From positions 1 through 29,230 of IMG/VR virus record IMGVR_UViG_3300030098_000165: a stretch of 29,230 bases of DNA. One strand, written 5' to 3'. The translations under genes were made by a program, and so were the position numbers. The notes under the pieces are model-generated. The model worked only from the letters and a program-made list of their open reading frames with translations, made no database searches and was not told where the DNA came from. This document shows positions 5,864 through 10,399 of this stretch, in pieces (the first letter of the stretch is position 1; each line of letters opens with the position of its first letter). The DNA is from a virus.

Positions 5864-6663
5864 AATTCCATTAACAAATTTATAGGTAATTTTCCGTTAT
5901 TCAAAACGACTGCACACCCTATTGCAGGTTTCTTTCCGTATTTAGCATAAGCCATTGCATAACTTTCGTGGTCAATTCCACAACCCACTTGCATACCAAA
6001 TACTCTAAACTTTTGACCAACATAATGCTCACAATAAGCCTGTGTATGCAAATGACCTTGAACAGTATTCATCATATCTGCCTTGCACTTGCTCCTCGCT
6101 GTACCACCCTCTCCATGCAAGAATTGTACACCATCTTTCACATACCTTTCTACAAAATTCCAATTTTGGACTTCTAAGACTTCTTTATAGCTTTTAATCC
6201 ATTTACTAGGGATAGCTGATGTTTGTGCCTTTCGCATTACCATTCTATCGTGATTGCCTATAATTACAGTAGCTTTAGGAAATGCTTTATACCAACGTGA
6301 TATTCTTTTTATTGCATATTCTAATTCTTGTTTACCTGAATACTCTGCATCAATGTTTACTTCGTGAAATGAACTGTAATGATTATCTATGACATCACCA
6401 ATAAAGACAACTTCTGTGCAGTCAAATTCATCATATTTAGATATACAAAATTGTAAGTATTTATCAAGTGAAAAGGGTTCGTGAAGGTCACCAATAACTA
6501 AAACATTATTATATCCCTCACCATTATTTTTTCGATTAGCTTTTATTAAGTCATATTCTGACTCAGTAAGTCTAGGTCGGTATGGTCTTAAATTATCTAT
6601 TTCTTTTTTATTTTTTCTAAACCTCTGCTTCCGAAATATGCTCCAATCGTTGTAATCAAACAT
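5860..6663 (-). CDS. Calcineurin-like metallophosphoesterase
   Basis: Starting at ATG 6663 the protein has 267 residues (a GTG at 6684 is possible but unlikely). All five metal-binding motifs are present: GDLH (58-61), GDVID (89-93), GNHD (136-139), His183 in FLHGEGG, and GHLH (203-206). Such two-metal enzymes hydrolyse phosphomono- or diesters. In phages they are proposed to act in DNA end processing or nucleotide signal removal; the substrate here is not evident. The gene starts inside the holin gene with 67 bases of overlap, so it is expressed late with the lysis genes, an unusual place for a DNA metabolism enzyme. Confidence 0.85.
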   Translation of the reverse strand: MFDYNDWSIFRKQRFRKNKKEIDNLRPYRPRLTESEYDLIKANRKNNGEGYNNVLVIGDLHEPFSLDKYLQFCISKYDEFDCTEVVFIGDVIDNHYSSFHEVNIDAEYSGKQELEYAIKRISRWYKAFPKATVIIGNHDRMVMRKAQTSAIPSKWIKSYKEVLEVQNWNFVERYVKDGVQFLHGEGGTARSKCKADMMNTVQGHLHTQAYCEHYVGQKFRVFGMQVGCGIDHESYAMAYAKYGKKPAIGCAVVLNNGKLPINLLMEL

Positions 6664-6971
6664 ATTTCTAACAAGGCAACCCACCGTTCCTCTACATTAA
6701 AATTAATTGCACCACTATCAATAAACACTAATAATACTGTTGATACTATTAGAAATGCTAATGTAAGCGGTCTGATATTTGCAGGTAACCAACCTGCTTT
6801 TGCGTCAGCTTCCCATCTTCTAGTAATCTGTTCTTGTGCATTAGCTTCAGCGTTAGCTAAGATTTCTTGCATCTTATTTTTTAAAGCTAGTTTTTCTTCT
6901 TTAGTTGTTACTACTTCATCAATGATTTCTGAAGCGTTTCCGATTATTGATTTAAAAATTCCTCCTAACAT
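6597..6971 (-). CDS. Holin of the GTA 3TM type
   Basis: The protein has 124 residues with an amphipathic N-terminal helix (MLGGIFKSIIGNASEIIDEV), a charged linker rich in Glu and Lys, then WLPANIRPLTLAFLIVSTVL, a first clear membrane span (about 67-83), and a second span ending in GAYFGSRGLEKIKKK. The RPLTLAF and YFGSRGLEK motifs are typical of the GTA_holin_3TM family. It would form inner-membrane holes that time lysis. It directly follows the endolysin gene (overlap of one base), as expected for a lysis cassette. Confidence 0.8.
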   Translation of the reverse strand: MLGGIFKSIIGNASEIIDEVVTTKEEKLALKNKMQEILANAEANAQEQITRRWEADAKAGWLPANIRPLTLAFLIVSTVLLVFIDSGAINFNVEERWVALLEICLITTIGAYFGSRGLEKIKKK

Positions 6972-7465
6972 TATAACGAGTTATATTCTATTAATGGTCT
7001 GTATTTAGTTTTGTTGTTTTCATCTTTATAAGCCACTAAAACCTGCCTTCTGTTGTCGCTAACCTTCCAACTAAGATGAATCCATGCAGGTCGCATGGGG
7101 TCATTATATTCTGTGCTGTCACCAAACTCAAGTATTATTTGGTCAAAGTCTAAGTCTAAATCCACAATAGTTTGATATATTTTGAGGTTATCCATTTTAC
7201 CCCTTTTTACATATTGTAAATCTACTGCTTCATATCTACAATGTTGTGAGTTTGCTGATGATCCTATTGCTTGTGATAATGCAGGACTTCTATAGCCGCT
7301 TGTAATTCTCAAAGCACCTAATCGGTCACGAATGGTTTGGAGAAAAGCGGCTAGAAGCCTTAATTTTATAATGCCCTCTTTTGTAGGTTTGTTACTTAAT
7401 CCAAGTCGTAATGCTGTATTACTTCTTGTAAATTCTTGTAATGTAAAATTTTTTGTAAGTCTCAT
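6971..7465 (-). CDS. Peptidase M15 family endolysin
   Basis: This 164-residue enzyme is a zinc carboxypeptidase/endopeptidase of the M15A (M15_3) group that cuts peptidoglycan stem peptides. The signature is complete: ITSGYRSPALSQAIG (54-68), His75 and Asp82 in SQHCRYEAVDL as zinc ligands, Glu113 in IILEFG as the probable general base, and His130 in AWIHLSW as the third ligand. The N-terminus NFTLQEFTRSNTA is the usual start for phage members. There is no signal peptide, so release to the periplasm depends on the neighbouring holin. Confidence 0.9.
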   Translation of the reverse strand: MRLTKNFTLQEFTRSNTALRLGLSNKPTKEGIIKLRLLAAFLQTIRDRLGALRITSGYRSPALSQAIGSSANSQHCRYEAVDLQYVKRGKMDNLKIYQTIVDLDLDFDQIILEFGDSTEYNDPMRPAWIHLSWKVSDNRRQVLVAYKDENNKTKYRPLIEYNSL

Positions 7466-7797
7466 TCAAATTTTGCTAAATAAACCTTGTCTATTGCATC
7501 TTGTAAATCATCAATAGATATATCTAGTTCCATCATTATATTTGCTTCATACCTTGCAACTTCTACATTGTTATCAAATACAATTAATGTAGGCACAGCC
7601 AATATGTTGTACTTTTCTTGTTCTTCTGGATTGTGGCATATCACAACATTTGCTTTTTCACAATCTTTTAAATCAGAAATATTATAATTATTTTCTGAGT
7701 TCCAATCACTATTGTAATGCACTACCTTTACTTGACCATTACAAGAACCAACACAAAAAAAGAATAGTCCTAGTATTATGTATGGTAAATTATTCAT
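7462..7797 (-). CDS. Thioredoxin-fold lipoprotein or secreted protein lacking CxxC
   Basis: The first ~20 residues form a signal peptide (MNNLPYIILGLFFFCVGSC) with VGSC as a possible lipobox, so the mature protein may be a lipoprotein beginning at Cys19. The body, 111 residues in total, follows thioredoxin: KVVHYNSDW at the first strand, then the cis-Pro loop VPTLIVFDNNVEVARYEA. Where the redox CxxC should follow the Trp there is NSEN, so it cannot be a normal disulfide oxidoreductase. It overlaps the endolysin start by 4 bases. As a late periplasmic lipoprotein next to a small membrane protein with a coiled coil (7797-8066), it could serve an outer-membrane lysis step; that is inference. Confidence 0.65.
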   Translation of the reverse strand: MNNLPYIILGLFFFCVGSCNGQVKVVHYNSDWNSENNYNISDLKDCEKANVVICHNPEEQEKYNILAVPTLIVFDNNVEVARYEANIMMELDISIDDLQDAIDKVYLAKFE

Positions 7798-8066
7798 TAG
7801 TTAATCTCATCTATTTTTCCCCTCAAATACTTCATATCTTCTTTAATTTCTTGCACATCTTCCTGTGTTGATAATATAGATGCACGTATCAACTTGTCTT
7901 TCAGTTCAAATTCCTTTTCACTAATAGGCATTTCAGGTAATGTCTTTGCTATCTCAACTTCTGCCATCAGCGTAAAATATGTTGCAGACAATGATATTAC
8001 AAAACCAATTATCATTATAATCGTTTTTAAATCAAGCGTAAATTCTGAGGATTCGTTTATTTTCAT
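7797..8066 (-). CDS. Small membrane protein with C-terminal coiled coil
   Basis: The 89-residue protein has one membrane span at about residues 14-35 (LKTIIMIIGFVISLSATYFT) followed by a charged helix with coiled-coil character (EDVQEIKEDMKYLRGKIDEI). That layout fits an inner-membrane spanin subunit or a XhlA-like lysis accessory. It lies between a two-span membrane protein and a predicted lipoprotein, both overlapping. No sequence family is recognised; the lysis role comes from context. Confidence 0.6.
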   Translation of the reverse strand: MKINESSEFTLDLKTIIMIIGFVISLSATYFTLMAEVEIAKTLPEMPISEKEFELKDKLIRASILSTQEDVQEIKEDMKYLRGKIDEIN

Positions 8067-8299
8067 TTGTTACAAGAGTTATCACATTTTTTACCTGAAA
8101 ACTTTTCTACACCACTAATACCAAAACAACCAAGCACAACCCATACAAAAGAATCGTAAACAAATTCATTTATAACTAGGTCTTTTCCAACCCACCCTGT
8201 AAGTAAATCAGCAATCATTATTAAACACATTATTATAAAAGCTACAAATCCTATTATAGCTTTTTCATTCCAAGCATTATTATCTTTAAATATATCCAT
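8063..8299 (-). CDS. Two-span membrane protein, second holin candidate
   Basis: The 78-residue protein has two hydrophobic segments, IIGFVAFIIMCLIMIADLLT and FVWVVLGCFGISGVEKF, with short polar ends and a Lys/Cys-rich tail (KKCDNSCNK). It is the first gene of the lysis group and overlaps both neighbours. The size and topology suit a holin or antiholin, and pairing with the GTA-type holin further on would be a two-holin arrangement. The assignment rests on topology and place. Confidence 0.6.
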   Translation of the reverse strand: MDIFKDNNAWNEKAIIGFVAFIIMCLIMIADLLTGWVGKDLVINEFVYDSFVWVVLGCFGISGVEKFSGKKCDNSCNK

Positions 8300-8850
8300 T
8301 ATAATTTATATTTTATTAAACCATTTTCTATGTAAATTCCTTCAGGTTTTATTATAGTTCTACCATTAAGGTCATATAATAATCCTGTATTTTTTGACTT
8401 GTTTAACACTTCTTGCATACCACTATTACAAGGTAATCCTGTTGTACAATCAACATATTCAGTAATAATGATTTCTTGAAATTCTACAATAGTGTCTGTT
8501 ATATATTCTGTTTCTATTATTGTTTCAACAATAGTATCTGTTTGTGTTATTATTTCAATAACAGGTATTTCCACAAATACTGTATCGCAACTTTCAACAT
8601 ATAATCCACAATCTGCTAGTGTTGTTGGAACGGCATTTGCTTCATCTGAACCGTCGACACAATCTTCCCAACCATCATTAAGATAAAATATGCCACCAAG
8701 ACCATTAGGAACGCAACCAAGAGGGCTATACTGAGTCCAATTTGATTCATCATCTCCACAATAGAAGCCGTTTTGTTCCACACATAATTCACAATTTGTT
8801 TGACTAAAAGCATAACTACATATTAAAAATAAAAACAATAATTTTCTCAT
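8299..8850 (-). CDS. Secreted Cys-rich protein with LDL-receptor-A-like motif and type IX sorting-like tail
   Basis: A 183-residue exported protein. Residues 1-16 are a Sec signal peptide with a FSQ cleavage site. Residues 20-88 hold seven cysteines and the stretch DGWEDCVDGSDEA (59-71), which matches the calcium-binding end of LDL-receptor class A repeats (DxxxDCxDGSDE). Residues 89-133 are a Thr/Ile/Glu repeat (TDTIVET, TEYITDTIVE). The end (156-183) reads LLYDLNGRTIIKPEGIYIEN and finishes Lys-Tyr-Lys-Leu, resembling a shortened type A sorting signal of the type IX secretion system. I infer export through the outer membrane and display on the host surface or release. It lies between a beta-barrel-like protein and the lysis genes. 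Function unknown; a virion decoration is the alternative. Confidence 0.7.
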   Translation of the reverse strand: MRKLLFLFLICSYAFSQTNCELCVEQNGFYCGDDESNWTQYSPLGCVPNGLGGIFYLNDGWEDCVDGSDEANAVPTTLADCGLYVESCDTVFVEIPVIEIITQTDTIVETIIETEYITDTIVEFQEIIITEYVDCTTGLPCNSGMQEVLNKSKNTGLLYDLNGRTIIKPEGIYIENGLIKYKL

Positions 8851-8852
8851 AA

Positions 8853-9872
8853 CTAAAAGATTAAATAATTAAACCCAAATTTGCACTCATAGACAGGCTT
8901 ATCCCAATACCTTAAATGTGTGCCTTCTACAAATAACCCTAAGTGCTTTGTAACTCTAACGCCTAATATAGCTCCAGAATCCCAATCTAAGCCTTCTAAG
9001 GCACTTTCTCCATACTCATAAGAGAATTCATCTATTCCATAGTGAAAAGGCATTAGATTCGCCCAAATGTGAACCCAATAATTTGGATTGTATTTATAGT
9101 ATGCCAAACCTAGCACTAAGCTAAGTTCTTTTTGCATACCTAATTTGTCTAATTCTTGCTCATTATAATCAGCTATAGCTTGACCAAAATAGTGTTTGTA
9201 GAACTCATCATTAGATGTTGCAAGTAATTCATCATTCTTAAACCAATGCCATCTACCATTTACAAACTCATTTGAATAGCCAAATTCTTCTGCTAATTGT
9301 CTAAAGGATTGTTCACCAGGAATCCAAAGGTCATCAATAGGTGTAATGCCATAAGGATTATGTTGTCTAAAAACACCCCCTAAAGTAAAGTCGAAACCAC
9401 CTTTTGTTAATCTTAATCTAGCATCTAATGAATTATATCTAAGATCAACACGTTGTCTGTCCGTATATTGTGCTTTTACTACAAATCTTTTTCCTAAGTA
9501 TCGTAGCCAATAATTCTGCTCATTAAGTGTGTCACCACGACTGCGTATATATGAATAATTAACAAGATACTCAAAACCAACAGCGTTGGAAATAGTAACA
9601 TTTTCTGCAACATTGTCCTCTGTTCCATAATACCAACTTTTAATCTTTTGTTCATAACCAAAACGAGCCACCTTTCTGATTCCTACAGTCAGGTTAAAAT
9701 CGTATGGATTAACTTGTGTAACATCTTCGTAGCCTTTATCAACAGAAATATAATCTTGATTTTCAACCATACTAGTATTCATATTCATTGATGTATAAAT
9801 AGTAGAATACTTGAAAAAGTCTATTTGTCCAAAAGACAAAAACGGAATTAATAATAATAAATACTTCATCAT
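8853..9872 (-). CDS. Outer-membrane beta-barrel-like protein with signal peptide
   Basis: Starting at ATG 9872, which forms an ATGA junction with the gene upstream, the product has 339 residues (a longer frame from 9917 adds 15 residues before the signal). It opens with a signal peptide, MMKYLLLLIPFLSFGQ, and then alternating aromatic strands (LVNYSYIRSRGD, YWLRYLGKRFVVKAQYTDR, FDFTLGGVFRQHNPYG, LGVRVTKHLGLFVEGTHLRY). It ends in Phe (FGFNYLIF) as outer-membrane barrels do. I recall similar proteins near virion genes in marine Bacteroidota phages, with no known function. It may be inserted in the host outer membrane late in infection, for example to block superinfection or help release. Confidence 0.65.
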   Translation of the reverse strand: MMKYLLLLIPFLSFGQIDFFKYSTIYTSMNMNTSMVENQDYISVDKGYEDVTQVNPYDFNLTVGIRKVARFGYEQKIKSWYYGTEDNVAENVTISNAVGFEYLVNYSYIRSRGDTLNEQNYWLRYLGKRFVVKAQYTDRQRVDLRYNSLDARLRLTKGGFDFTLGGVFRQHNPYGITPIDDLWIPGEQSFRQLAEEFGYSNEFVNGRWHWFKNDELLATSNDEFYKHYFGQAIADYNEQELDKLGMQKELSLVLGLAYYKYNPNYWVHIWANLMPFHYGIDEFSYEYGESALEGLDWDSGAILGVRVTKHLGLFVEGTHLRYWDKPVYECKFGFNYLIF

Positions 9873-10399
9873 AATACTTTTGTATAACAATAAGTTACAT
9901 AAACGTCCATTGACCAACCACCATTAAATGCTGCACTAGACCAAATAACAAATGGTTTGTTAATAATAGAACCATCATAAGCACCTGAAGCACTTACATC
10001 ACCACTAAAATTATACGTTCTATTTGTACTAGCTGCGTGCATCATTCTACCCATACCATCCCAATACTTATTATCATCAGAATCATCATAGCCAAAATAC
10101 AAAGAAGCATTAGAGCTTTCTGCAGCAGAAGCATAAGTAACTAAACAAGTTACGTTAAATACTGTTACCATATAACCACTCAATGCCCCAACTAAAACTT
10201 TTTCGTTACTGCTCAAGTCTTGAACTTCTGCATTTGATACAGATATTTTATCTGTTTGCATTAAGAATTTTGCGTCATATTTTTTGCTTGTTCCTTCTGC
10301 TGAAGATGTTGTGTCGTTTACATCTACTACCATTAACAAATCACCTGAGCCTAATTGTTCTTCAAGTGCTGTTTTATCGGTTAACCTTTGTCCTGCCAT
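9869..10399 (-). CDS. Virion structural protein, fibre- or receptor-binding-like
   Basis: The 176-residue protein starts AGQRLTDKTALEEQLGSGDL then VVDVNDTTSSAEGTSKKYDA, a start I associate with small structural proteins of flavobacterial phages. The C-terminal half is rich in Ser, Tyr, Gly and aromatic strands (LYFGYDDSDDNKYW, YNFSGDVSASGAYDG, MDVYVTYCYTKVL), like a trimeric fibre head. It follows the connector-like genes and precedes the outer-membrane protein gene. A head fibre or tail-tip fibre is the best guess. Confidence 0.6.
   Translation of the reverse strand: MAGQRLTDKTALEEQLGSGDLLMVVDVNDTTSSAEGTSKKYDAKFLMQTDKISVSNAEVQDLSSNEKVLVGALSGYMVTVFNVTCLVTYASAAESSNASLYFGYDDSDDNKYWDGMGRMMHAASTNRTYNFSGDVSASGAYDGSIINKPFVIWSSAAFNGGWSMDVYVTYCYTKVL

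Follow-up and report, generated by a model that had tools for sequence, protein, structure and literature searches.

Here, we show that a 183-residue exported protein encoded by a viral genome fragment represents a real and widespread marine viral family, and that it forms a conserved, obligate cassette with a predicted outer-membrane β-barrel. The gene occupies positions 8299–8850 on the minus strand of a 29,230-base IMG/VR record (IMGVR_UViG_3300030098_000165, the whole of which was analysed and is called the window), where it is single-copy. We propose a late cassette for display on the host surface, probably via the type IX secretion system (T9SS) or a T9SS-like route, with alteration or shielding of that surface as its role; we put the probability of this reading at roughly 0.45. 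The T9SS is an export machine that occurs only in Bacteroidota.

Results

A marine viral family without a catalogue entry

A scan of viral contigs with the whole protein gave 134 confirmed stretches and a scan with the tail alone gave 158; as the tail-only scan recovered the same family, it provides no test of tail modularity in phages. Homologues with the same tail, which the first-pass annotation of this DNA had named as desirable support, were found in this way in marine viral contigs. PHROGs and NCBIfam hold no family for the 183-residue protein. The comparisons below use 130 distinct sequences for gene neighbourhood, 155 for stalk length, 81 for alignment and 53 for HMM matches. Eight cysteines (20, 23, 31, 46, 64, 81, 135 and 141) are invariant in the 81 aligned members, together with D59, D63, D69, E70, Y159, G163, I174 and G177, and the conservation of the window open reading frame is far above chance.

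Architecture of the exported protein

The first-pass annotation had proposed, at these coordinates, a secreted protein with a Sec signal peptide, a seven-cysteine LDL-A-like region, a Thr/Ile repeat spacer and a type IX sorting-like C-terminus. The open reading frame and the named features are real, but the strand, absent from that annotation, is the minus strand (start at 8850, stop codon ending at 8299); the plus strand of the same coordinates is rich in stop codons. The annotation likewise made no mention of the barrel partner, of the cassette or of the register of the stalk. All window features given below are likewise on the minus strand. The protein starts with a signal peptide, MRKLLFLFLICSYAFSQ (residues 1–17; 8800–8850), and by a pattern test a signal-peptide-like start is found in all 129 members with a visible N-terminus, which upholds the Sec assignment. 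It is followed by a Cys-rich, LDL-A-like head (residues 20–88; 8587–8793), a stalk in alternating beta register (residues 89–133; 8452–8586), a DCxTGxPC motif (residues 134–141, DCTTGLPC in the window protein; 8428–8451) and a C-terminal tail (residues 143–183; 8302–8424), which contains LLYDLNGRTIIKPEGIYIENGLIKYKL at residues 157–183. The seven cysteines expected within residues 20–88 are all there in the window protein, although C88 is not conserved among relatives, being a cysteine in 59 of 81 members.

LDL-A modules bind calcium through the side chains of four acidic residues at the relative positions D, +4 D, +10 D and +11 E. The invariant D59, D63, D69 and E70 have exactly this spacing and form the ligands of a predicted calcium site, YLNDGWEDCVDGSDE (residues 56–70; 8641–8685), which overlaps DGWEDCVDGSDEA (residues 60–72, from D59), and the adjacent D66, G67 and S68 vary among the 81 members. 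The head also shares with the LDL-receptor class A module (PF00057) its CxDGSDE end, but differs in its longer loops and in the fourth cysteine of the fold, which is Asn 58 in 81 of 81 members; we therefore call the head LDL-A-like and do not treat it as an LDL-A member. The Pfam model Ldl_recept_a matches the window protein at 14.9 bits (E 0.033), short of its gathering score of 24.1, and gives sub-threshold matches in 39 of 53 members, so that the HMM comparison of the head suggested earlier does return the expected family, but below the Pfam cut-off. What survives of the LDL-A assignment is the calcium-site spacing, without Cys 4. A sequence search of the PDB pairs YLNDGWEDCVDGSDE with WKCDGDEDCVDGSDE, the corresponding VLDL receptor site (E about 0.001). 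Nearly all natural PDB matches of the head are LDL-A proteins; in the single-sequence search, a designed repeat protein ranks first. The head is modelled with a pLDDT of about 75, and a fold search of the window protein returned a single weak match, a giant haemoglobin chain (Z 2.0). NDGxxDCxDGSDE repeats, similar to the phage calcium site, also occur in proteins of marine Poseidoniia-group archaea (L166–L170) and are numerous in L166, L168 and L169.

The spacer is present as annotated, but instead of a plain Thr/Ile repeat it is a segment of D, T, I, V and E that keeps an almost strict two-residue register across the family, with V, I, E or D in one register and T, Y, I or F in the other. Measured from the first DT after the head up to DCxTG, stalk length is odd in 144 of 155 distinct members (40 different lengths, 9 to 177). 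The 11 even stalks have five lengths only, and all of them carry DTLW(M/L)(E/D)GALDT or a close variant (DTLYLEGALDT or DTLYMEGALDT), a motif that contains a glycine and is one residue longer than the usual DTVYAEVLDT. From the excess of odd lengths it follows that stalks gain and lose residues in two-residue steps, as expected for a beta strand whose faces have to be kept in register; selection against register shifts and recombination between even-length repeats would both explain the parity. Three MAG relatives, L163, L164 and L165, have stalks of 27, 33 and 157 residues, of the same parity. The stalk of the window protein was not predicted confidently (the whole model is poor, pLDDT 59), and for this reason no claim is based on its model.

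The barrel partner and the surrounding genes

Immediately upstream of the gene, at 8853–9872, lies the gene of a 339-residue protein with a signal peptide and a predicted 12-stranded outer-membrane β-barrel. A homologous barrel gene is upstream in 128 of 130 distinct members, and the remaining two start at contig ends; in 107 the two genes are within 60 nt of each other, and in the others within 1 kb. The AlphaFold2 model of the barrel (pLDDT 76.8, 12 strands) has Tsx as its best structural neighbour (Z 15.0), followed by many generic barrels and including KdgM and NanC, and because so many of the matches are generic we claim only a fold class for this partner. Pairs in which a secreted protein and a barrel are encoded side by side, as here, are known for type B CTD adhesins with a PorP/SprF shuttle (PMC12618676, PMC9143113), but the phage barrel is unrelated to these shuttles beyond the signal peptide and the phage tail is unrelated to type B. 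Identity of the barrel with the PorP/SprF shuttle (TIGR03519) was rejected, since the 20 aligned columns are all signal peptide (probability 5.7%), as was a type B sorting tail (TIGR04131), whose score of 14.5 is within the shuffle range (maximum 14.65).

Downstream, 51 of the 130 distinct loci encode a small membrane protein (78 residues; 8063–8299). An 89-residue protein with an N-terminal membrane segment and a probable coiled coil (7797–8066) is encoded in 107 of 130, and an exported 111-residue thioredoxin-like protein without CXXC (7462–7797; weak thioredoxin matches) in 115 of 130. The coiled-coil protein has a weak holin/anti-holin match (phrog_10340, E 6.4e-5). Among 116 thioredoxin-like partners CXXC is missing in 113 and present in three. 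A spanin-type module would combine an inner-membrane coiled-coil protein with an outer-membrane lipoprotein beside the endolysin; here the coiled-coil gene is present, and a lipobox-like start is found in only 16 of the 116 thioredoxin-like partners. The coiled-coil and thioredoxin-like genes overlap one another and the gene of the peptidase M15 endolysin (6971–7465), after which comes the holin (6597–6971; phrog_3427, E 1.4e-21). On the other side, the gene before the barrel (9869–10399) probably encodes a tail-fibre or adsorption protein, judging by its position and by a gene annotated as tail-fibre-like in this region of the related phage P12024S. The cassette thus lies between adsorption and lysis genes and for that reason probably acts late.

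The window portal is 31% identical to the portal of the Nonlabens phages P12024S/L, whose portal, fibre region, endolysin, holin and phosphoesterase are arranged as in the window but which, unlike the window, have no barrel or LDL-A gene at that place. This similarity, together with the MAG relatives, points to marine Flavobacteriia as candidate hosts. Rfam and tRNA scans gave no matches and a promoter scan stayed at chance level. Between 5700 and 11500 the window has six terminator-like sites, against 1.6 expected.

The tail and its relation to sorting domains

The HMMs that the first-pass annotation had named for the C-terminus do not recognize it: even at E 10, TIGR04183 (cut-off 23 bits) matched neither the window protein nor any of the 53 members nor the record as a whole, and Por_Secre_tail and the other Pfam HMMs gave none to the tail at any threshold. 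In profile–profile comparisons, the likeness of the tail to the last part of type A sorting domains is weak. Compared with a type A CTD profile, the phage tail scores 19.1 over 11 aligned columns only, against a null of 9.4 ± 2.0 with a maximum of 15.7 in 150 shuffles. The phage protein is like a type A protein in its Sec signal peptide, the C-terminal position of the tail and the strand order YDxxGR...GIYI...K, but its tail corresponds to about the last third of the type A domain, lacks the YPNP start and most of the strands, and has a predicted helix in place of the first strands. The structure prediction that had been suggested for the tail yielded a small fold of a helix and strands with a pLDDT of about 80.

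By the same kind of comparison, there appears to be a clear relationship between the tail and the short tails that end some host proteins with signal peptides. We ran the tail profile on 396 genomes from the order to which the L163 MAG belongs. Four strong matches (E below 1e-20), proteins of Flavobacteriales MAGs, have the same stalk, DCxTGxPC motif and tail on different ectodomains, namely GCMDPxACNYDP repeats (L163, L164), leucine-rich repeats (L165) and another ectodomain (L228), and the weaker matches (E about 1e-5 to 1e-2) are mostly short C-terminal tails of other exported proteins, with a signal peptide wherever the N-terminus is visible. These host tails are likewise missed by TIGR04183 and Pfam. 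The score of 61 between the phage tail and the host short tails is not independent, because the phage profile had served to find the host tails; the host short tails score 32.7 against the type A profile, with a shuffle maximum of 15.6. A combined profile of phage and host tails against type A was dropped, as one shuffle gave an aberrant score of 130.6. SprA is encoded in 19 of the 21 genomes with matching proteins, and four of these genomes each have 25–54 TIGR04183 proteins. The genomes behind the MAG proteins with the shared stalk and tail are among those with SprA, and the three of them that were searched have 25–40 TIGR04183 proteins. A Crocinitomicaceae protein of 1138 residues (L162:7956–11372) has the phage head twice and ends in a TIGR04183 domain above cut-off.

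Phage signal-peptide proteins with other heads and short tails resembling the window tail were seen at L266:10790–11386, L288:2284–2802 and L292:16–468; the first of these is similar to host proteins L175, L184 and L177.

Full type A cargo beside related barrels

A 43-kb phage contig in a Flavobacteriales bin (L227; the same contig is L230 in IMG/VR) encodes a homologous barrel together with coiled-coil and thioredoxin-like proteins; immediately ahead of the barrel gene lies that of a 994-residue exported protein, which matches TIGR04183 with 53.6 bits (cut-off 23). The window protein, the window barrel and the barrel and thioredoxin-like protein of L227 have no match in 50,697 phage records, and an L227-type C-terminus finds only two matches among catalogued phages, both weak and unannotated. 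Of at least 541 related viral stretches recovered with the L227 barrel as query, 80 were kept. TIGR04183 was run on the L227 cargo, and the other cargo was called by sequence motif. By this rule, which missed some cargo (L260, L280), a gene for exported cargo bearing the type A CTD motif lies directly upstream of the barrel in 50 of the 80 loci and elsewhere in the locus in 10 more; half of the adjacent cargo genes (25 of 50) have a 4-nt stop/start overlap with the barrel gene, as in translational coupling. Among the listed loci with a window-type barrel the LDL-A gene is present in 76 of 79 new ones, and in the remaining three the sequence stops at the barrel or shortly behind it. In L255, L256, L259 and L267, type A cargo adjoins the barrel and the LDL-A gene lies further downstream. 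Large exported proteins with the type A motif adjoin the barrel gene at L227:7121–11186 and in loci L230–L309, in phages of up to 245 kb, and adhesin-like GCTDPxxFNYDP repeats are found in the large cargo of this sister clade.

Discussion

How could the parts of this cassette work together? The protein would be exported by Sec, in keeping with the signal peptide in all members with a visible N-terminus, and its Cys-rich head, with the invariant ligands, would fold around a calcium ion in the periplasm. The tail may then act as a short sorting or anchor signal across the outer membrane, most likely for the host T9SS or a variant of it. At the surface, the protein would be held at or near the phage barrel, and the stiff beta-register stalk would project the LDL-A-like head. 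The likeliest consequence is that the surface of the infected cell would be altered or shielded, such that the cell and its debris no longer bind further phages. In these comparisons the T9SS link is suggested by the sister-clade cargo and the hosts; that the window tail itself directs export and that the barrel helps or anchors it is what we infer, as is our preference for shielding over lysis or adhesion. The original proposal of a type IX tail is thus not borne out by the named HMMs, but it gains indirect support from the profile–profile score, the host tails and the type A cargo beside the barrel. Against display of the LDL-A-like protein speaks that, in phages with both, the immediate neighbour of the barrel is the type A cargo and not the LDL-A protein. 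A more specific proposal, which is possible but which we regard as doubtful, is that marine Bacteroidota phages have a portable system for surface display, in which the phage barrel is dedicated to T9SS cargo, as its shuttle or its anchor, and the tail of the LDL-A protein belongs to a new short T9SS-type class, common to phages and hosts and missed by the standard models.

Could the tail instead fold into a cap that closes an oligomeric beta-stalk? The protein would then be periplasmic or docked on the inner face of the barrel, and would possibly bridge it to the coiled-coil and thioredoxin-like proteins. The predicted small fold of the tail and its lack of T9SS HMM matches agree with a cap, the two-residue register suggests a stiff beta fibre, and four neighbouring proteins could bridge the envelope. 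However, the same tail is found on otherwise unrelated, surface-type ectodomains of MAG proteins, and neighbouring barrels are paired with full T9SS cargo; we consider a cap somewhat unlikely. The position of the cassette directly before the M15 endolysin and holin, the overlaps that tie two of its genes to one another and to the endolysin gene, and the weak holin/anti-holin match of the coiled-coil protein would all fit an outer-membrane lysis step, in which the barrel, stalk, coiled-coil and thioredoxin-like proteins take the place of spanins in rupturing or perforating the outer membrane. Yet in L227 the barrel and T9SS cargo sit between ribonucleotide reductase/helicase genes and a different lysin, a lipobox is rare in the thioredoxin-like protein, and P12024S, with neither barrel nor LDL-A gene, shows the same order of endolysin, holin and phosphoesterase, which makes a lysis function unlikely.

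Improbable, in our estimation, is a host-derived adhesin or nutrient module, by which infected cells would adhere to one another, to algae or to particles, or would admit substrates through the barrel. The adhesin-like repeats of the sister-clade cargo and the nucleoside and sugar channels (Tsx, KdgM, NanC) among the best structural neighbours of the barrel are consistent with it, but barrel folds are generic and such matches show no function, and the late position of the genes leaves little time for a benefit to growth. That the product decorates the virion would agree with the proximity of its gene to the presumed tail-fibre gene; the signal peptides across the whole family and the obligate barrel partner, itself with a signal peptide, make this very hard to believe. 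Surface display with a shielding role stays our preferred reading.

Phage-encoded proteins with T9SS sorting domains have already been reported, as cargo genes of cryophages (PMC7468147) and in crAss-like phages with BACON domains (PMC6949934), so that the principle of T9SS cargo in phages is known. As far as the accessible parts of these reports go, they concern other cargo, encoded by individual genes, and describe no barrel partner or conserved cassette, whereas in our comparison the barrel and the exported cargo are kept together as one conserved cassette. Our literature search found no earlier description of the barrel partner, the short tail or the register rule.

In conclusion, hundreds of marine viral contigs, from records as long as 245 kb, carry a cassette of barrel and cargo. 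If its cargo reaches the surface, these phages would remodel infected cells via a machine that only Bacteroidota have, and with an outer-membrane partner of their own. Marine Flavobacteriales would furthermore gain candidate T9SS substrates in the proteins with short tails, which TIGR04183 misses.
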